Shown here: one piece after another, positions 30,938-40,903 of the stretch
Layout: the number at the start of each line of letters is the position of its first letter
Position numbering within the stretch: the stretch's first letter is position 1
Notes under the pieces: model-generated
Databases searched by the model: none
Told to the model about the DNA's origin: nothing
The model's input: only the letters and a program-made list of their open reading frames with translations
Translations under genes and position numbers: made by a program
Assembly: GCF_002197845.1 (NCBI RefSeq)
Contig: NZ_NIDE01000003.1
Coordinates: 186,001-250,000, forward strand
Direction: 5' to 3'
DNA: 64,000 bases
Source: Fimbriiglobus ruber
GTDB taxonomy: Bacteria > Planctomycetota > Planctomycetia > Gemmatales > Gemmataceae

Positions 30938-33382
30938 TCACAGGGGAGGATTGGGCTTCACTTGCGCGTCGCCCGATTCGCTTACTACGATCCCGGCCGG
31001 CGGCTTCCCGGCGGCGTAACTGTCCCACATGGCCCGGTAAGCCTGTTCCAGGTGCCGGGTCACGCGGGTCGTGTCGAAGAGCGGCCACGTCGTCCGATTG
31101 GCAGCCAACTTTTCTCGGAGTCGACTCAGTTCGTTGGGGCGTTGGGCCAGATCAACCGCCCGCCGCGCGTACTCGTCATGGGTAGCCGCGATCAGTTCCG
31201 GCTGGCCGATGTTCGTCAACAAACTCGCGGCCACGCGGGAAGCAAACGTCTGACCCGGGCAGGTCAGGACGGGCAGCCCCGCCCACAGCGCATCGCAAGC
31301 CCCGGTGTGGGCGTTCACCACTGGCGTATCGAGGAATAGATCGGCCAGACGGAGCCGGGCGAGGTGTTTGGTCTTCGTTTCGTGAGCCGCGAAGATGATG
31401 CGGTCGGACGCCAGCCCCCGAGCCGTTGCCTCCCGACGGAGGTTGCGTTCGACCGTGGCACCAGACGAATATAACCACAACACACTGCCGGGAACCTGCC
31501 CCAGAATCTTCGCCCAGACGTCGAAAATGCCCGGCTCGAATTTGTAGCTGTTGTTGAAACAGGTAAAGACGAACCCGCTCTCCGGTAAGCCGTAGTCGGC
31601 TCGCCGGACGGGCGCGGTTGCGATCTCTTGTTCGCGATCCGTCACCAGGTAGCAGTTCGGTAGAAGGACCAATCGCTCGCTGTATCCGGCCGCCATCTCG
31701 GGCGGCGTCACGGTCCGGTCACTGATCAGATAATCGAGGAACGAAGCGCCGCAGGTGCCGGCGAAACCGATGTAGCTGACCTGAATCGGCGCCGGTCGCA
31801 GGGCGACGATCTCCTCGCGGGCTCCGCCGGTGTGGCCCATCAAATCGACGAGAATATGGACGCCGTCGTCATAGATCCGGCGGGCCGCGGTTGCAGTCGG
31901 GACACCCGCGAGGTCGCGGAACTGATCGCAGTCGCGGCGGGCCCGCTGCCGGTAAGTGCTGCCATCGTCTGGGCCGTAGGAGTAGATGAAAACCTCGAAT
32001 TCGCGCCGGTCGTGCAGACCGAACAGGCCCATCATTAATTGCATCAGGGCGTGGTGGTGAAACGTCCCGCCGATGTACCCGATCCGCAAGCGGCCGGTCC
32101 GCGATCGGAGAAACGAGAAAGCCGGGGGCGGTCCCGCGCCGAGTACGATGTCCTCCGAAAACCGGCGGGCGACGGCCAATTGAAAGTCCAGTGACCAGTC
32201 GGTGGTCATCATGTTGAACGGCGTGATCGCCGGCCGCCGGCCGCCCGCCAACCGCTCCTCAGCATCGCGCCGTAACCGTGCGAAATCGGCGTCCCGCGTC
32301 CGCCAGTCGCAGAGCAGCTCGCGGATGCGGACCAGGTTGGCGAACGCCTCCGCGTGGTCGGGTTGCAATGACAAAACCCGCTCGAATACCGGCTGGGCGG
32401 CTTCCCAGCGCGCCTGCTGCAAGATGATGTGGCCGATATTTTCGAGGGTTTCCACGGAATCGGGAGCCAGCTTGAGCGCACTTTGTAAGGCAGCGAGCGC
32501 CTCGTCGCGACGACCCCAGGCCGCCAGGGCGATACCCAGGTAGCAGTGGGCTTTGACGTACTCGGGCCGGAACCGGATAGCCTCCTGATAACACCCGATG
32601 GCCGCCGGGTCGCCCTGGTTGCGGAAAATGTTTCCGAGATTGCAGTGGGCCTCGGGGTAGTCTGGTTGCAACGCGATCGCCCGTCTCAGATGGACAATGG
32701 CTTCCACGAATTTCCTTTGCTCGTTGAAGACAGCCCCCAGGTTGTTGTGGGGGATGGCGTAGTCCGGTTTGAGTCGGATCGCCCCGGCGAAGCAGGCTGC
32801 GGCTCCGTCCAGGTCGCCGTTGCGGTGTAAAACCTGTCCCAGGTTGGTCAGCGCCCGGGGTTGGTCTGGCTTGATGGCCAGGCTCTGGCGAAAGCTGGCC
32901 GCGGCCCGAGCGAGTTGACCTTGGTCCGAGAGAATCATCCCGAGGCCGTTGTGCGCGGCGGCCAACGTCGGGTCCAGGCGCAATGCCGTCTGGAAGCACG
33001 CCTCGGCCTCGCTTCGGTCGCCCCGGACACGGTAGGCTTCCCCGAGGGCGTGGTGGAAGGGTGCGTGGCCGGGCCGCAAGAGCGTCGAGTGGTGGAGGTG
33101 AAGGAGCGCGACGACGGCTTGACCGGCTTCGAGGGCGAGGGCACCGAGCAGATGGACGGCCTCGGCGTGCAACGGTTCTCGCTCCAACACGTCCCGACAG
33201 AAACTCTCGGCCCGTCGGTAGTCGCCGTTCCGGTAATGCGCGATCGCATGTCCGTACAGCGTGGTGACGGTGCCGTCATCTTGAGGCCGTTTCTGGTGTG
33301 TCGACTGCGTCTGGCAATGGGCATCCTTCTTGCCCAGGTTGCCGTCCCGTTTCGGGTTTTCGGCGGGAATTACTGGCGGCAT
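30938..33382 (-). CDS. TPR-containing O-GlcNAc transferase-like glycosyltransferase (GT41)
   Basis: This 814-residue protein has eight to ten TPR units in the N-terminal half (about 40-370, e.g. AAHNGLGMILSDQGQLARAA, PHNNLGAVFNEQRKFVEAIV). A C-terminal GT41/SPINDLY-type catalytic region follows: RIGYIGGTFHHHALMQLM, then VSYIGFAGTCGASFLDYLIS, FVFTCFNNSYKFEPGIFDVW, GSVLWLYSSGATVERNLRRE, DTPVVNAHTGACDALWAGLP and GQTFASRVAASLLTNIG. These match the UDP-sugar pocket of human OGT. It should transfer a sugar to Ser/Thr of proteins in the cytoplasm. It is divergent from the giant surface-protein gene, a tempting but unproven substrate. Confidence 0.92.
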   Translation of the reverse strand: MPPVIPAENPKRDGNLGKKDAHCQTQSTHQKRPQDDGTVTTLYGHAIAHYRNGDYRRAESFCRDVLEREPLHAEAVHLLGALALEAGQAVVALLHLHHSTLLRPGHAPFHHALGEAYRVRGDRSEAEACFQTALRLDPTLAAAHNGLGMILSDQGQLARAAASFRQSLAIKPDQPRALTNLGQVLHRNGDLDGAAACFAGAIRLKPDYAIPHNNLGAVFNEQRKFVEAIVHLRRAIALQPDYPEAHCNLGNIFRNQGDPAAIGCYQEAIRFRPEYVKAHCYLGIALAAWGRRDEALAALQSALKLAPDSVETLENIGHIILQQARWEAAQPVFERVLSLQPDHAEAFANLVRIRELLCDWRTRDADFARLRRDAEERLAGGRRPAITPFNMMTTDWSLDFQLAVARRFSEDIVLGAGPPPAFSFLRSRTGRLRIGYIGGTFHHHALMQLMMGLFGLHDRREFEVFIYSYGPDDGSTYRQRARRDCDQFRDLAGVPTATAARRIYDDGVHILVDLMGHTGGAREEIVALRPAPIQVSYIGFAGTCGASFLDYLISDRTVTPPEMAAGYSERLVLLPNCYLVTDREQEIATAPVRRADYGLPESGFVFTCFNNSYKFEPGIFDVWAKILGQVPGSVLWLYSSGATVERNLRREATARGLASDRIIFAAHETKTKHLARLRLADLFLDTPVVNAHTGACDALWAGLPVLTCPGQTFASRVAASLLTNIGQPELIAATHDEYARRAVDLAQRPNELSRLREKLAANRTTWPLFDTTRVTRHLEQAYRAMWDSYAAGKPPAGIVVSESGDAQVKPNPPL

Positions 33383-33786: not shown

Positions 33787-36700
33787 ATGTCTCGCCCTTC
33801 TTCCTTCGAACAGCTTTTGACCCGCTTGTTCGGAGTCGCGGCCAGTTCTCAACGGCGGGCCGCAGCCCGAAAGCCGTCGCCACTCGTCCTCCAACAGTTG
33901 GAATCGCGCCTCGTGCCGGCGACCACGGTCAGCATTGCCGATAATAGCGTCGTTGAGCCGGCCCCCGGGGGAACCGTGAATTTGGACTTCACGGTCACGC
34001 GGACGGGAGATTTGACCTCACAGCTCACGGTCGGGTACACCACGGTCGCCGGAACCGCTCAGGCCAATACCGATTTCACGCCCGAGACCGGCACGACGAC
34101 CTTTTCTTCGGGGTCGGCCACCGCCACCATTTCTATCCCGGTGATGGGGAACGGGGTTTACGAGCCCGCGAATTTAACCTTTTCGGTCCAGTTGACCGGC
34201 GTCGTGAACGACGTCGGCCCGCCCGTGACGTTTGCGGCTCAGAACACGTTCGGCACGGCGAACGCTCCCACCTCCGTGGCCATCGGCGACTTGAACGGCG
34301 ACGGCAAGCCGGATCTTGTCGTGGCCGAGTCTGCGAGCGACGCAGTCGGCATCTTCATCAACACGACAGTCCCGGGAGCGACGACGCCCTCGTTTGCCCC
34401 CGAGCAGACATTCTTCGCGTGGACCGCTCCGACCGCCGTCGCCATCGCGGACGTGAACGGCGACGGCAAGCCCGATATCATCGCCGTCAACGATTTGCTC
34501 AACGGTAGCGTCACGGTCTTGCTGAATAACACGCCGACGGGGTCCGCCACCGCCTCGTTCCCCTTCAATTCCCCGGCCCAGGTCTTCAACGTCGGCGGTT
34601 CGCCCCAATCCCTGGCCGTGGCGGACGTGAACGGCGACGGGTTGCCCGACATCGTCGTCGCCAACACGGCCGACAACACGGTTTCCGTCCTGCTGAACAC
34701 GACCTCGCCCGGGGGGAAAGCCCCCTCGTTCGCCACCCAGCAAACCTTCGCCACGGGCAGTTCGCCGAGCGGAGTGGCGGTGGACGACGTGAACGGTGAC
34801 GGCAAGCCCGATATTACGACGGCAAACGCGGGCGACGACACCGTGTCGGTCCTCTTGAACACGACGCCGGCTGGGGCGACGACGGCGGCATTCACAAACC
34901 AAAAAACCTTCGCCACCGGAACGACGCCCACCGCCGTCGCGGTGGCCGACGTGAACGGCGACGGCAAACCCGACTTGCTCGTCGCGAATTCCGGCGCGAA
35001 CAGTGTCAGCGTGCTGGTGAACACGACGCCAGCGGGCGCCACAACGCCCTCGTTCGCCACCCAGCAAACCTTCGCCACAGGAACGCAGCCCGTTTCCTTG
35101 ACCGCCGACGACCTGAACGGCGACGGCAAACCCGACCTGATTGTCGCGGACCAACTCGGCAACGACATCTCCGTGCTGGTGAACACGTCGCTGCCGGGTT
35201 CCTCGACACCGACCTTCGCCGCCCAACAAACCTTCGCCGCGGGCAACACACCGGCGTTCCTGGCGACGGGGGATTTGAACACCGACGGGTTGCCCGACGT
35301 CGTCGTCGCCAACAACGGCGACAACAGCCTGTCGGTTTTGTTCAACACGACCCAGTTAGGCGCGCCTAAGATCGCGCCGGCGTTCCCGACGGCCGCAACA
35401 TCCGCGACCGGGGACAAAGCCAACAGGGTCACCGCGGGGGATCTCAACGGTGACGGGTTGCCCGACCTCGTCGTGGCGAACGTCGAGGACGGAGACGTGT
35501 CGGCGTATTTAAACGAGACCCCGCCCGCGGCTACCACCTTCTCGTTCGCCGCCCAACAAACCTTCGCCACCGGGTCCACCCCTTTTCAGGTCGCCATCGG
35601 GGACGTGAACGGCGACGGGTTGCCCGATCTCGTCGTCTCCGGCGCGGGCGGCGGGGTGGCGGTGCTGCTGAATACGACGCCGCCGGGTGCGACCACGCTG
35701 TCGTTCGCGGCCCCGCAAATCTTCGCCACCGGTAGCGGACCGGGCGCAATTCAACTCGCGGACGTGAACGGCGACGGCAAACTCGACATCGTCATTGCCG
35801 ACGAGAACAGTAACGACGTGTCCGTCCTACTCAACTCGACAACCCCGGGTGCGACCACGCCCTCGTTCGCGACTGCCCAGACGTTTGCAGTCGGCCGAAC
35901 TCCCTTGGGGCTAGCGGTCGGGGACGTGAACGGTGACGGCCTGCCCGACCTCATCGTTACCAATTCGTCCGACAACACGGTTTCCGTATTGCTAAACGAC
36001 ACTACGCCGGGAGCCACCGTAGCGGCATTCGCGACCCAACAAACGTTCGCTACGGGATCGTTTCCCGATTCGGTCGCTCTCGGCGACGTCAACGGCGACG
36101 GTCTGCCCGATCTCGTGATCACGAATTTCGATGATAATGACATCTCGGTGCTGTTGAACGCGACGACTTTTGGCGCGTCCGCCCCGACCTTCGCCTTCGC
36201 CACCCAGCAGACCTTCGCCACAGGTGCCGGTCCTAACTATGCCCTACTGGGGGATGTGAACGGCGACGGCCGCCCCGATGTCGTGGTGGCTAACAAGAAC
36301 GAGAACGACGTTTCGGTACTGTTGAACGCGACGACCCCTGGTGCGTCCGCCCCGGCGTTCGCCACCCAACAGACGTTCGCTACGGGGGCGCTTCCCACGG
36401 CGGTGACGCTGGCTCAGGTGAACGGCGACGGTCGCCCGGACCTGGCCGTGGTCAACTTCCAGGACTCGTCGGTCTCCGTGCTGGCCAACACGCCGGCCAC
36501 GATCACCCGCGGCCAGGCCACGGGCACGATCGTTGAAAGTGGTTCGCCACCAACCGTCCCGTTCTCGACTGGCGCGGAGACGGTCGACGCATCGACCGGG
36601 ACGTTCAGTGTCACGGTCACGATGTCGTCCGCCTCGGCCGTCGACACGACCATCCCGTTCACGGTCGGCGGGACGGCCGTCGCCGGGACCGACTACAGCG

Positions 36701-39471
36701 GACTGACTGCGTCCCCGCTCGTCGTCCCTGCCGGTCAGACGACCGCCACCATCACCGGCTCACTCATCAGCCACCCGGGCAGCAACCAGACCCTGACGCT
36801 CACCCTCGGCACCCCGACCAACGCCACTCTCGGAACGACCACCGCCAATACCCTGACGATCACCGAACCCGCCGCAACGCCGCCGTCCGTTCAATTCGCC
36901 ACGACTACTGAGATGGTCGACGCATCGACTGGATCGTTTACCGTAACTGTTACCCTGTCGGCCGCGTCGTCCACCGATGCCACGATCCCGTTCACCGTGG
37001 GCGGAACGGCCGTCGCCGGGACCGATTACAGCGGACTGACGACATCTCCCCTCGTCATCCCCGCCGGCCAAACGACCGCCACCATCACCGGAACTCTGAC
37101 CCCGGAAGCCGGGTTCGACCCGACCGGCAAGACCCTAACGCTCACCCTCGGCACCCCGACCAACGCCACACTCGGAACGAACACCACCAACACCCTGACG
37201 ATCACCGAACCCGCCGCACCGCCGTCCGTCCAGTTCAACACGGCTGCCGAAACGGTGAACGCATCGGCCGGGACGTTCAGCGTAACCGTCAACCTGTCCG
37301 CCGCGTCGACCGTGGATACGACCGTACCGTTTACCATCGGCGGCACGGCGGTCGCGGGAACCGATTACAGCGGGCTCACTGCGTCCCCACTCGTTATCCC
37401 CGCTGGCCAGACGTCCGCCACCATCACCGGCACACTCATCAGCCATCCGGGTAGCGACCAGACCCTGACACTCACCCTCGGCACCCCGACCAACGCCACT
37501 CTCGGCACCACGATAACCAACACCCTGACGATCACCGAACCCGCGGTCGCGACGCTGCCGGCCGTTCAGTTCACCACGACCAGTGAAACTGTCGACGCGA
37601 CGGCGGGGACGTTCAGCGTGACCGTCACCCTCTCGGCCGCGTCGCCGACTGACACTAGCATCCCGTTCACGGTGGGTGGGACGGCGGCAGCCGGGATCGA
37701 CTACAGCGGGCTGACCGCGTCCCCGCTCGTCATTCCCGCCGGCCAGACGTCTGCCACCATCACCGGGGCACTCGTCGATGATCCCGGCGCGAACAAGACC
37801 CTGACGTTCACACTCGGGGCTCCGACCAACGCCACACTCGGGGCGACCACCACCAACACGCTCACCATCACCGAGCCGTTGGCCAACGTCCAGCCGGAGG
37901 TCGGATTCATCAGCCCGACCGAAACCGTCAACGCGGCGGACGGGACGTTCAGCATCACCGTCCAATCTCTCCAGTCGGCCACGGATGTCACAATCCCATT
38001 CACCGTTGGGGGAACGGCCGTCGCCGGGGTCGACTACACCGGGCTGACGGCATCTCCGCTCGTCATTCCCGCTGGCCAGTCCTCCGTTACCATCACCGGG
38101 AAGCTTCTCAGTCACCCCGGCAGCAACCAGACCCTGACGTTCATACTCGGCACCCCGACCAACGCCCTCCTCGGAACGATCAGGGTCAACACCCTGACGA
38201 TCTCCGAACCGGCGGTCGTTTCACAGCCGACCGTTCAGTTCGCCACGACCAGCGAGACGGTCGACGCGACGGCCGGAACGTTCAACGTGACCGTCAACCT
38301 GTCGACCGCGTCGGCGACGGCGACCACGATCCCATTCACTATCGGCGGGACGGCGGCCGCGGGGACCGACTACACCGGGCTGACCGCGTCTCCACTCGTC
38401 ATCCCCGCCGGCCAGACGTCCGCCACCATCACCGGCACACTCGTCAGCCACCCGGGCAACGACCAGACCCTGACGTTCACCCTCGGCACCCCGACCAACG
38501 CCACACTCGGCGGTTCGGCAACCAACACCCTGACGATCCATGAAGCGAAGATCGTCTTGATCGCCACCGGCGCGTCGGCCGGGAATGCTCCGGAAGTGAA
38601 GGTCTTCAACGCCGACGGCTCCATCCGCTTCGACTTCATGGCCTACGCCGCGAACTTCACGGGCGGCGTCACCGTTGCGGTCGGCGACGTCAACGGCGAC
38701 GGCGTACCCGACATTATCACCGGGGCAGGCCCCGGCGGCGGCCCCCGCGTCGAAGTCTTCGACGGCGTCACCGGAGCCCTCATTGGTAATTTCTTCGCGT
38801 ACAGCCCGACGTTCACGGGCGGCGTCTACGTCGCGGTCGGGGATGTAAACGGCGACGGCAAAGACGACATCATCACCGGCGCGGGAGCCGGTGGCGGTCC
38901 CCACGTCAAGGTCTTCGACGGCGCCACGGGTGCCACACTGCAAAGCTTCTTCGCGTACAGCCCGACGTTCACGGGCGGCGTGACGGTCGCGGCCGGGGAT
39001 GTGAACGGCGACGGCAAGGCCGACATCATCACCGGAGCGGGCCCCGGCGGCGGACCCCAGGTCAATGTTTTCGACGGCGCCACCGGCGCGGTGCTGCAAA
39101 GCTTCTTCGCCTACGATGTGCAATTCACGGGCGGCGTCTACGTCGCGGCCGGAGACTTCAAGGGCGACGGCGTGGCGGATATCGCCACCGGGGCCGACGT
39201 CGGCGGCGGCCCCCACGTGAAAATCTTCGACGCGGAAACCGGCGCGGCATTCCAGAGCTTCTTCGCGGGCGACTCGGGCTTGCGAAATGGCGTGACGGTC
39301 GCGGCAGGGGACGTGAACGGTGACGGCAAGGACGACGTGATCACCAGTGTCGGGGCCGGCGGCGGTCCCCACGTCATCGTTTTCGACGCGACCACGAACG
39401 CCACCTTGTTGAACTTGTCGGCTTACCCGGCGTCGTTCGTCGGCGGCGTGTACGTGGGGTCGGACGGCTGA
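33787..39471 (+). CDS. Giant FG-GAP / Calx-beta repeat protein with N-terminal LESR motif
   Basis: This is a 1894-residue repetitive protein, predicted to be outside the cytoplasm. The N-terminus has the planctomycete-type segment LVLQQLESRLVPATTVSI instead of a classical signal peptide. Order: one Calx-beta domain; 14 FG-GAP/VCBS blades with the calcium-binding core DVNGDGKPD or DLNGDGLPD (34240-36490, spaced about 165 bp); six tandem 110-residue Calx-beta-like units (36540-38540); and five C-terminal FG-GAP units with the consensus DVNGDGKDDIITGAGAGGGP (38640-39470). No catalytic residues are seen. Such proteins act as Ca-dependent adhesins or envelope structure. Start 33787 was chosen for the MSRPSSFEQLLTRLF leader. 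It is divergent from a GT41 glycosyltransferase and separate from nhaA. Confidence 0.9.
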   Translation: MSRPSSFEQLLTRLFGVAASSQRRAAARKPSPLVLQQLESRLVPATTVSIADNSVVEPAPGGTVNLDFTVTRTGDLTSQLTVGYTTVAGTAQANTDFTPETGTTTFSSGSATATISIPVMGNGVYEPANLTFSVQLTGVVNDVGPPVTFAAQNTFGTANAPTSVAIGDLNGDGKPDLVVAESASDAVGIFINTTVPGATTPSFAPEQTFFAWTAPTAVAIADVNGDGKPDIIAVNDLLNGSVTVLLNNTPTGSATASFPFNSPAQVFNVGGSPQSLAVADVNGDGLPDIVVANTADNTVSVLLNTTSPGGKAPSFATQQTFATGSSPSGVAVDDVNGDGKPDITTANAGDDTVSVLLNTTPAGATTAAFTNQKTFATGTTPTAVAVADVNGDGKPDLLVANSGANSVSVLVNTTPAGATTPSFATQQTFATGTQPVSLTADDLNGDGKPDLIVADQLGNDISVLVNTSLPGSSTPTFAAQQTFAAGNTPAFLATGDLNTDGLPDVVVANNGDNSLSVLFNTTQLGAPKIAPAFPTAATSATGDKANRVTAGDLNGDGLPDLVVANVEDGDVSAYLNETPPAATTFSFAAQQTFATGSTPFQVAIGDVNGDGLPDLVVSGAGGGVAVLLNTTPPGATTLSFAAPQIFATGSGPGAIQLADVNGDGKLDIVIADENSNDVSVLLNSTTPGATTPSFATAQTFAVGRTPLGLAVGDVNGDGLPDLIVTNSSDNTVSVLLNDTTPGATVAAFATQQTFATGSFPDSVALGDVNGDGLPDLVITNFDDNDISVLLNATTFGASAPTFAFATQQTFATGAGPNYALLGDVNGDGRPDVVVANKNENDVSVLLNATTPGASAPAFATQQTFATGALPTAVTLAQVNGDGRPDLAVVNFQDSSVSVLANTPATITRGQATGTIVESGSPPTVPFSTGAETVDASTGTFSVTVTMSSASAVDTTIPFTVGGTAVAGTDYSGLTASPLVVPAGQTTATITGSLISHPGSNQTLTLTLGTPTNATLGTTTANTLTITEPAATPPSVQFATTTEMVDASTGSFTVTVTLSAASSTDATIPFTVGGTAVAGTDYSGLTTSPLVIPAGQTTATITGTLTPEAGFDPTGKTLTLTLGTPTNATLGTNTTNTLTITEPAAPPSVQFNTAAETVNASAGTFSVTVNLSAASTVDTTVPFTIGGTAVAGTDYSGLTASPLVIPAGQTSATITGTLISHPGSDQTLTLTLGTPTNATLGTTITNTLTITEPAVATLPAVQFTTTSETVDATAGTFSVTVTLSAASPTDTSIPFTVGGTAAAGIDYSGLTASPLVIPAGQTSATITGALVDDPGANKTLTFTLGAPTNATLGATTTNTLTITEPLANVQPEVGFISPTETVNAADGTFSITVQSLQSATDVTIPFTVGGTAVAGVDYTGLTASPLVIPAGQSSVTITGKLLSHPGSNQTLTFILGTPTNALLGTIRVNTLTISEPAVVSQPTVQFATTSETVDATAGTFNVTVNLSTASATATTIPFTIGGTAAAGTDYTGLTASPLVIPAGQTSATITGTLVSHPGNDQTLTFTLGTPTNATLGGSATNTLTIHEAKIVLIATGASAGNAPEVKVFNADGSIRFDFMAYAANFTGGVTVAVGDVNGDGVPDIITGAGPGGGPRVEVFDGVTGALIGNFFAYSPTFTGGVYVAVGDVNGDGKDDIITGAGAGGGPHVKVFDGATGATLQSFFAYSPTFTGGVTVAAGDVNGDGKADIITGAGPGGGPQVNVFDGATGAVLQSFFAYDVQFTGGVYVAAGDFKGDGVADIATGADVGGGPHVKIFDAETGAAFQSFFAGDSGLRNGVTVAAGDVNGDGKDDVITSVGAGGGPHVIVFDATTNATLLNLSAYPASFVGGVYVGSDG
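36541..38540 (+). repeat. Six tandem about 330-bp coding repeats (Calx-beta-like units)
   Basis: Each unit encodes a version of FTVGGTAVAGTDYSGLTASP, then LVIPAGQTSATITG and LTLGTPTNATLGTT, ending in NTLTITEP. Identity is high at DNA level too (for example CTCGGCACCCCGACCAACGC recurs in several units), which indicates recent duplication or gene conversion. These repeats are a likely site of copy-number variation and of assembly error. Confidence 0.85.
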
Positions 39472-39559
39472 TCGCGGTCGACGCCGGTAACCAGAGACCG
39501 CCACCTGTGAAACGTGCGTGTTGGGTGTTCTGTCGCCCGTGTACCGATCGGGTTCGCGA

Positions 39560-40903
39560 ATGGCCCACAAATCCCAATCCCGGCGGCGACCGCCGGTACG
39601 CCCGGCCCCGATCGACCGAATCAAGGAGCCCGTCCGGCGATTCCTCGCGATCGAATCGGCCAGCGGGGCGGTGTTGATCGGCTGTACGTTGCTCGCGATG
39701 GCGGCGGCCAACTCTGGGGCGGCTCACGCCGTTCATGCGTTCTGGGAGACGCACGTTCGCGTCGGCGTGGGCGAATACGTCCTCGATCAGCCGTTGCATT
39801 TCTGGGTGAACGACGCCCTGATGACGTTGTTCTTTTTCGTCGTCGGGTTGGAGATCAAGCGAGAACTGGTCGGCGGCGAACTGAGTACACCCCAGAAAGC
39901 CGCTCTACCCGTGGTAGCCGCGCTCGGCGGAATGTTGGCCCCGGCGGGTCTTTATCTCGCGCTCCATGTGGCACTCGGTAAGAGTGATGCCGGAGCCCGC
40001 GGGTGGGGCATCCCGATGGCCACGGACATCGCGTTCGTGGTCGGCGTCCTGGCCGTCTTCGGTCCCCGCGTTCCGTTCGGGCTGAAGATCTTCCTCCTCT
40101 CGCTGGCCATTGCCGACGACATCGGCGCGATCCTCGTCATCGCCGTGGCGTACAGCGGGTCGCCGGACGGATTGGCGCTGTTGACCGCCGCGGCCGGGTT
40201 CGCGGCGATCTTCGGCATGCAGCGTCTCGGCGTTCGTTCGGTCGGTCTTTACGTACTCGCGGGTGCCGGAATCTGGCTGGCGGTTCTGAAGTCCGGAGTC
40301 CATCCCACGATCGCCGGCGTCTTGCTGGGACTGATCACCCCGTCATCCGCCTGGGTCGCCCGCCCGACCCTCACGGACACCCTCACGGACACCCTCGCCC
40401 GCTTGTCCGACGCCAAGGTCGCCCACATCGACGGGGACGACGTGCGGCGGGTCGCGTTCGCCGCGCGGGAGTCAGTATCCCCTCTGGAACGCCTGGAAAG
40501 ATTCCTCCACCCGTGGATCGGCTTCGCGGTCATGCCGTTGTTCGCGCTTGCGAACGCGGCCGTCGAGGTGCGGTTGGAGGCGGTGAAAGACCCGATCGCA
40601 CTGGCGATCGCGGTCGCACTGATCGTGGGCAAGCCGGTCGGCATCGTCGGGTTCAGTTACGCGGCGGTACGAATGGGAATCGCGCAGCTTCCGACCGGTG
40701 TGAACTGGAAGATGCTGGCGGGGGCCGGTTGCCTCGGTGGGATCGGGTTCACGATGTCGTTATTCATCGCCGGCCTCGCGCTGCCATTCGACTTGCTGGA
40801 CGCCGGGAAAATTGGCATCCTGATCGGCTCCGCAGCCAGCGCCTGCATCGGGAGCCTTTTGCTCGTGTTCGGCCTTCCGAAATCGGTGGCAAACCCGACG
40901 TGA
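39560..40903 (+). CDS. nhaA: Na+/H+ antiporter NhaA
   Basis: This 447-residue inner-membrane antiporter exchanges H+ for Na+, controlling pH and sodium. Family signatures are LHFWVNDALMTLFFFVVGLE, then IKRELVGGEL, IPMATDIAFVVGVLAVFGPR, SLAIADDIGAILVIAVAY with the paired ion-binding aspartates, LKSGVHPTIAGVLLGLITP and GIGFTMSLFIAGLALP. An N-terminal basic extension (KSQSRRRPPVRPAPIDRI) precedes helix 1. Start ATG 39560 was chosen because the upstream alternative lies 14 codons ahead with no ribosome site. A short duplication encodes LTDTLTDTL in the central loop. It stands alone, 88 bp after the giant protein's stop. Confidence 0.96.
   Translation: MAHKSQSRRRPPVRPAPIDRIKEPVRRFLAIESASGAVLIGCTLLAMAAANSGAAHAVHAFWETHVRVGVGEYVLDQPLHFWVNDALMTLFFFVVGLEIKRELVGGELSTPQKAALPVVAALGGMLAPAGLYLALHVALGKSDAGARGWGIPMATDIAFVVGVLAVFGPRVPFGLKIFLLSLAIADDIGAILVIAVAYSGSPDGLALLTAAAGFAAIFGMQRLGVRSVGLYVLAGAGIWLAVLKSGVHPTIAGVLLGLITPSSAWVARPTLTDTLTDTLARLSDAKVAHIDGDDVRRVAFAARESVSPLERLERFLHPWIGFAVMPLFALANAAVEVRLEAVKDPIALAIAVALIVGKPVGIVGFSYAAVRMGIAQLPTGVNWKMLAGAGCLGGIGFTMSLFIAGLALPFDLLDAGKIGILIGSAASACIGSLLLVFGLPKSVANPT

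Follow-up and report, generated by a model that had tools for sequence, protein, structure and literature searches.

Fourteen FG-GAP blades probably nested as two propellers in an N-terminal Calx-beta domain of a giant Fimbriiglobus ruber protein

Within the window, the 64,000-nucleotide stretch of Fimbriiglobus ruber DNA analyzed here, an ATG open reading frame at 33787–39471 (+) encodes a giant protein of 1894 aa, in which we consider it probable that 14 FG-GAP blades, as two seven-bladed propellers, are nested in an N-terminal Calx-beta domain of an exported chain, with a rod and a third module following. By open reading frame reading and composition, the protein is rich in Thr (16.5%), with a pI of 4.05, no Cys, and a mass of 187 kDa. 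FG-GAP loop motifs number 14 at aa 168–877 and five at aa 1634–1842 (13 + 5 by a stricter pattern), and six Calx-beta-like units begin at aa 924, 1035, 1148, 1260, 1372, and 1483; the original prediction of 14 FG-GAP blades, six Calx-beta-like units, and five further FG-GAP units in one reading frame is thus correct by motif and unit counts. Pfam assigns FG-GAP_3 (E 8e-128), FG-GAP (E 1e-87), and Calx-beta (PF03160; E 2e-38, 131.3 bits) to the protein, the last in seven stretches, of which the seventh, at the N-terminus, had been missed and is the main feature of the gene. No integrin thigh or calf families are listed by the Pfam scan of the whole protein.

All parts of the chain lie on the plus strand. 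The N-terminal motif LVLQQLESRLVPA (aa 33–45; 33883–33921), a candidate planctomycete export signal by its match to a published motif, is followed by the first part of the split Calx-beta domain, with strands up to F (aa 46–140; 33922–34206; Pfam and model). Blade counts and a seam after blade 7 divide the insert, with approximate borders, into a putative propeller 1, consisting of a leading outer strand and blades 1–7 (aa 141–523; 34207–35355), and a putative propeller 2, consisting of blades 8–14 (aa 524–903; 35356–36495). The candidate last (G) strand of the host, ATITRGQATGTIVESGS (aa 904–920; 36496–36546), is assigned from the joined HMM score against shuffles, the six Calx-beta-like units (aa 924–1585; 36556–38541; period ~336 nt) by unit comparison, and the C-terminal FG-GAP module (38551–39471), with its five loop motifs and the closing strand GGVYVG near the very C-terminus, by motif pattern. 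In the arrangement that we propose, the Calx-beta sandwich would be interrupted between its last two strands by the 14 blades, as the sequence and its homologues indicate with support from models; the blades would fold as two consecutive seven-bladed integrin-type propellers, and the chain would then complete the sandwich. The six units may serve as a spacer rod, and the chain may end in a third, propeller-like FG-GAP module. Blades and rod units would have been homogenized or re-amplified while the blade number in the Calx-beta host stayed fixed at 7 or 14, a constraint that presumably comes from the need to close a propeller ahead of finishing the host sandwich.

The Pfam Calx-beta profile matches over positions 25–96 of 119 at aa 67–138, ending just ahead of the first blade, and this first part alone scores 50.2 bits against a cut-off of 27. 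After blade 14, ATITRGQATGTIVES resembles the missing last strand of this domain, which would place the blades in the F–G loop of a Calx-beta sandwich that is complete with its last strand only once joined across the insert. The join was assessed with an HMM built from 185 Calx-beta segments (71 of 95 fetched loci used, known split proteins excluded), only 74 of which carry the expected strand motif near their end; the joined domains of 12 proteins were each scored against 200 shuffled tails. No shuffled tail reached the joined score in seven of the 12 (the giant protein, G106, G064, G386, G156, G192, and G055), while the score was reached by 1/200 in G062, 7/200 in G336, 12/200 in G382, 21/200 in G176, and 52/200 in G000b, the paralogue from the same genome. 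The joined domain also outscored the natural contiguous sequence in 11 of the 12 proteins, with G382 as the exception. The generic Pfam Calx-beta model gains 0.1–2.7 bits from the join in five proteins, 0.8 bits in the giant protein itself, and its end is reached in one of the five. The clearest evidence for a split domain is an intact Calx-beta domain in genome G049 (L155), which contains both halves of the G060 domain in one piece with 85 of 109 residues identical and one internal one-residue gap; the uninterrupted domain aligned to both halves thus represents an empty insertion site. The paralogue, in a 487-aa segment at L021:2717–4177, has a like layout with seven blades, and in all, 15 proteins with differing downstream domains carry such a tail behind their 7 or 14 blades, although the tails of G176, G386, G192, G772, G787, and G774 were chosen by eye with the rule in mind, the pattern having missed the first three.

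All 15 complete split-Calx proteins in an open frame carry either 7 (five) or 14 (ten) blades, although these proteins are related and do not constitute 15 independent tests. Fourteen blades were counted in the first surveys in the giant protein, G106, G062, G064, G176, G382, G386, G156, and G192, and seven in G055, L021, and G336; a later search, made when the multiple-of-seven rule had already been noted, added G772 with 14 by pattern and G787 and G774 with seven each by eye. Counts were finished by eye where loop motifs had diverged, in L153 and L154, both among the 15 and settled with the rule in mind, and in L132, which was excluded for its unrecognized last strand (49-residue blades, 14 by eye). 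Also excluded were L058 (in-frame TAG, 12 blades), a second split domain in L129 that ends before its last strand (7 blades), L059, L060, L061, L130, and L151 (contig or frame ends), L063 (contig start), and L064/L138 (7 blades and a tail, the first part lost to a frame change). The exception to the rule is G060:C188, a draft-genome copy with an in-frame TAG, 12 blades, and a deviant junction after blade 6, which may be misassembled or may truly break the rule. For comparison, a cruder pattern was used to count 26 control FG-GAP runs of 4–24 blades in 13 other regions, with some runs merging with other FG-GAP modules or abutting N stretches; multiples of seven were found in 12 of the 26 (ten runs of seven blades, all from genome G012, and two of 14). 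Since the control runs are often not multiples of seven, the regularity is limited to certain nested arrays.

While the number of blades is kept, their sequences turn over, since a blade in one protein rarely finds its best match at the corresponding position of another, with 0–3 of 14 being mutual best matches in 36 comparisons. A same-position excess at p<0.03 in four of the 36 pairs (P1–G192, P1–G106, G106–G064, and G106–G382) suggests that some positional memory of the blades remains. An origin of the 14 blades by doubling of a seven-blade block left no trace in eight of nine proteins (offset-7 permutation p 0.16–0.80); the ninth, G064, gives a weak signal (p 0.028). Separately, the blade spacing in the second ring of L129 (G192), which carries its second split Calx-beta domain further along the same protein, follows a 52/54 alternation, a hint that the amplified units were two blades long.

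The seam between the putative rings was ranked in nine of the ten fourteen-blade proteins, with G772 left out. Among the 13 junctions, junction 7 ranks lowest in five proteins, second in two, third in one, and 8th in G156. The irregularity falls in a turn that would link two strands of one blade, and its position after the third strand of blade 7 fits a linker between tandem rings. A structural model of aa 46–920 (9 alignment rows; pLDDT 80.4, pTM 0.60) has a strand at model residues 865–871, where the G strand would be expected. Foldseek matched this model to Calx CBD1 over ~96 columns (3gin_B, E 7e-4, TM 0.63 by target; 3ead_A, E 3e-3, TM 0.73), below double-propeller proteins such as DDB1, which rank higher at low TM-scores. 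The 14-blade model gives propeller matches up to Z 21 with spans of 97–858, 98–477, and 482–857. The seven-blade paralogue models as a closed integrin-type propeller (3 alignment rows; pLDDT 86.3, pTM 0.83), with the propeller mostly above 90 and the sandwich at low confidence (block pLDDT 49–77); its residues ~100–472 match integrin alpha propellers at Z 32–33 over ~320 residues, on a par with the matches to aldos-2-ulose dehydratase (Z 34.3) and virginiamycin B lyase. The ring assignment of the 14-blade region is less certain in the models than that of the paralogue.

The six central units had been described as near-identical at the DNA level over long stretches; in fact, they are 67–82% identical over 324–336 nt in all 15 pairs, the longest exact run is 35 nt, and units 1 and 2 share the best local match, a 95-nt stretch at 94%. 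Identity at four-fold sites is 0.52–0.71 against 0.39–0.41 expected from codon usage (15 pairs), and Tandem Repeats Finder detects the array with a period of 336, 5.8 copies, and 75% matches: a genuine repeat, well outside what chance would give, but an old one. The identity and silent-site tests rule out both near-identity of the units and their recent duplication. A homologue in G106, from another genus of the same family, aligns end to end with 60% amino-acid identity (1121/1862 aligned residues) and has the same unit numbers of 14/6/5. Between the two proteins, the Calx units share 27–45% of four-fold sites, which at 33% expected means saturation, whereas they share 49–69% within the giant protein (41% expected by codon usage) and 56–74% among units 1–5 of G106 (34% expected). 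Unit 6 of G106 is the exception, at 20–33% to its own neighbors and no nearer to them than to the units of the giant protein. Since silent sites are saturated between the proteins and not within them, the units were homogenized or re-amplified within each lineage in the distant past, with unit numbers unchanged. Permutation tests for silent-site runs gave p = 0.66 for the giant protein (39 silent sites) and p = 0.16 for units 1–5 of G106, of whose ten pairs a single one, 2 and 4, reached p = 0.016 uncorrected. In unrooted trees, units 1–5 of G106 form one clade with 100% support, beside unit 4 of the giant protein (59–84%), whose own units form no clade; unit 6 of G106 lies beside unit 2 of the giant protein (88% protein, 51% DNA). 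Conserved synteny was rejected, as flanking genes of at least 250 aa differ at the two loci. Two genomes of the same genus yielded weak partial matches to the split-domain query only, in a collection holding one genome per species.

Of the proposed duplication or conversion of these units, the past homogenization therefore stands, while its description as ongoing finds no support in the run tests. The wider reading, in which ongoing duplication and gene conversion produce strain-level length variation, draws on homogenization within lineages; however, with DNA identities of 67–82%, no tract signal, and a 14/6/5 pattern unchanged in the 60%-identical homologue, we regard it as highly improbable. 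Two proteins with equal unit numbers, from different genera and with different neighbors, argue against loose length variation. The absence of any nesting is a somewhat better, though still unlikely, account: here tandem propellers would come after an incomplete or degenerate Calx-beta-like sandwich, and the TGTI-like tail would either link to the next unit or form its first strand. The small gains on the Pfam model and the frequent equal scores of shuffled tails in the paralogue and G176 agree with it, whereas it leaves unexplained the seven of 12 joined domains that beat every shuffle, the uninterrupted homologue with both halves side by side, and the similar tail that 15 proteins, their downstream domains differing, have in a constant place behind 7 or 14 blades.

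Two further alternatives, each of which we hold to be rather unlikely, concern the rings and their role. One propeller could interrupt the other directly after its first strand, making a ring within a ring, so that the whole insert would be entered and left within one blade. A ring made of the leading strand and blades 8–14 would give the 97–858 span that many matches of the 14-blade model show with only ~275–300 residues aligned, the span being that of the first and last residues reported; yet other matches give 98–477 and 482–857, and the irregularity after the third strand of blade 7 lies where a tandem linker would. Alternatively, the protein may be a secreted enzyme or lectin with the propeller as its active part rather than a scaffold or adhesin, which the best structural match of the seven-blade model, aldos-2-ulose dehydratase (tied with integrins), would favor, as would the typical linkage of VCBS propellers to carbohydrate recognition in the consulted part of PMC9218822. 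Set against this, Pfam and NCBIfam scans of the giant protein returned no fitting catalytic family above cut-off. Two tandem propellers nested in the Calx-beta domain remain our preferred reading.

The split-domain layout is patchy; one class accounts for its occurrences, in the three families f1, f3, and f4. In tables sorted by E-value, full-junction matches occur in 7 of 95 genomes of the family, 14 of 397 of the class, and 17 of 396 relatives of G192 (E<=1e-25). Among 392 genomes sampled from the phylum (E<=1e-16), F. ruber's own genome was the only one with such matches, the four sets being overlapping ones; one other near-full match, G419 (L133), has complete Calx-beta domains ahead of the blades and, like the weaker candidate L062, proved on reading to hold ordinary Calx-beta domains. 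A wider search of genome contigs for relatives returned one FCB-group locus with ordinary Calx-beta domains and no nesting, and a plasmid search returned one Hymenobacter record matched by the blade part alone. Additionally, seven-blade arrays in G012 (L156, L157, L166) lie ahead of a TYTL-like strand in sandwiches with a Big_12 match (31.3 bits, cut-off 27; joining adds only 0.2 bits), with three sandwiches of seven blades each in one protein, and a Big_12-like sandwich in G102, at 18.4 bits and below cut-off, seems to hold 13 blades. From these sequences, the nesting of propellers in Big_12-like sandwiches is suggestive only. A broader proposal, that in planctomycetes the last loop of immunoglobulin-like sandwiches (Calx-beta, Big_12-like) is a general propeller socket in which ring closure and completion of the host favor multiples of seven while sequences turn over, is tentative and falls somewhat short of even chances; it is made less probable by G102, with its 13 blades and a joined score that drops from 18.4 to 14.4.

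The original prediction of a Ca-binding protein would fit the propeller loops, since the D.[ND].DG..D motif is complete in 17 of 19 FG-GAP loops, but it fits the acid-poor Calx-like units poorly. In NCX-type Calx-beta domains, the acidic cluster is the Ca2+ site. At the position of the four acidic residues in the consensus of the relatives, the split domain carries a single one, and the counts for the six units are 0, 2, 1, 2, 0, and 1; as the cluster is mostly gone, the split domain is classed as Calx-beta-type and not as Ca-binding, and the units, without most of the usual acidic residues, are more likely structural.

The anticipated LESR-type N-terminus was confirmed as LVLQQLESRLVPA, a candidate export signal that fits LxLExLExRxxP, put forward as such for planctomycetes in the accessible text of PMC8567305, but for one E. 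The strict motif occurs in one of the 15 split-Calx proteins (G106) and a loose pattern in 12, including the giant protein; PF07595 gave no match in its own genome at E<=0.001, and NCBIfam none on this N-terminus. The giant protein is probably exported and, by analogy with BapP and planctomycete surface proteins (both discussed below), most likely a surface scaffold or adhesin. From its domain families, it may be a cell-surface scaffold, adhesin, or glycan-binding protein, in which Ca2+ in the propeller loops would stabilize the fold. The C-terminal FG-GAP module is itself widespread, the whole-protein query matching 41 of 41 genomes (F. ruber's included) with most listed matches there; of 16 closed reading frames with the module, a loose pattern places a GGVxVG-like closing strand at the end of the protein in 14, most of these loci having been found by similarity to the module itself. 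A sorting or anchoring role is possible. Upstream, across a 404-bp gap, a divergent gene at 30938–33382 (-) encodes a TPR and Glyco_transf_41 protein of the O-GlcNAc transferase/SPINDLY type, which could glycosylate the Thr-rich giant protein; no gene of the Glyco_transf_41 type is found among the reading frames examined beside the G106 homologue. Downstream, a reading frame for an NhaA-type Na+/H+ antiporter (39518–40903, +) shares the strand of the giant gene and starts 46 bp past its stop.

Bacterial integrin-type FG-GAP propellers with seven blades, sometimes in tandem, are known, as stated in the part of PMC3192720 available to us, and the giant protein resembles them in its blade motif, its 14 blades as tandem sets of seven, and a Ca-site motif found in almost all blades; the top structural matches of the seven-blade paralogue likewise include integrin alpha propellers. 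Unlike those propellers, the blade set here would lie inside another domain, and the term Calx-beta occurs 0 times in PMC3192720. According to the consulted sections of PMC9218822, propellers are amplified from single blades, WD40 proteins peak at 7 and 14, and blade numbers form a continuum, with a VCBS median of 6 and related chitinases of 3, 4, 6, and 9 blades. The present blades are similarly homogeneous within a protein and different between proteins, but depart from that continuum, as all 15 complete split-Calx cases have 7 or 14. BapP, described in the excerpted text of PMC12153261 as a Ca2+-dependent adhesin of Pseudoalteromonas tunicata, likewise combines an N-terminal propeller and Calx-beta repeats on one large exported protein; it differs in its five-bladed propeller ahead of the sandwiches, its Sec signal peptide, and its phylum. 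Planctomycete surface proteins with LxLExLExRxxP share the N-terminal motif and large size, and the accessible text of PMC8567305 describes no nested propeller among them. The novelty is the nesting, as seven-bladed propellers in tandem are already known from bacteria and so is the N-terminal motif; in the open-access literature, searched by titles and abstract starts and in part through the best-ranked entries, no description of a Calx-beta domain with an inserted propeller was found.

A forecast of length variation between strains made from repeat identity alone can mislead, as a warning from this gene. With ring-closing sizes in every one of the 15 complete split-Calx proteins, old sequence turnover in evidence, and varying arrays elsewhere, the host domain may check the repeat number, and the nesting allows genome comparison and altered blade numbers to test whether folding and repeat copy number are linked. 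The nested layout further suggests a building plan for some of the giant surface proteins of planctomycetes.
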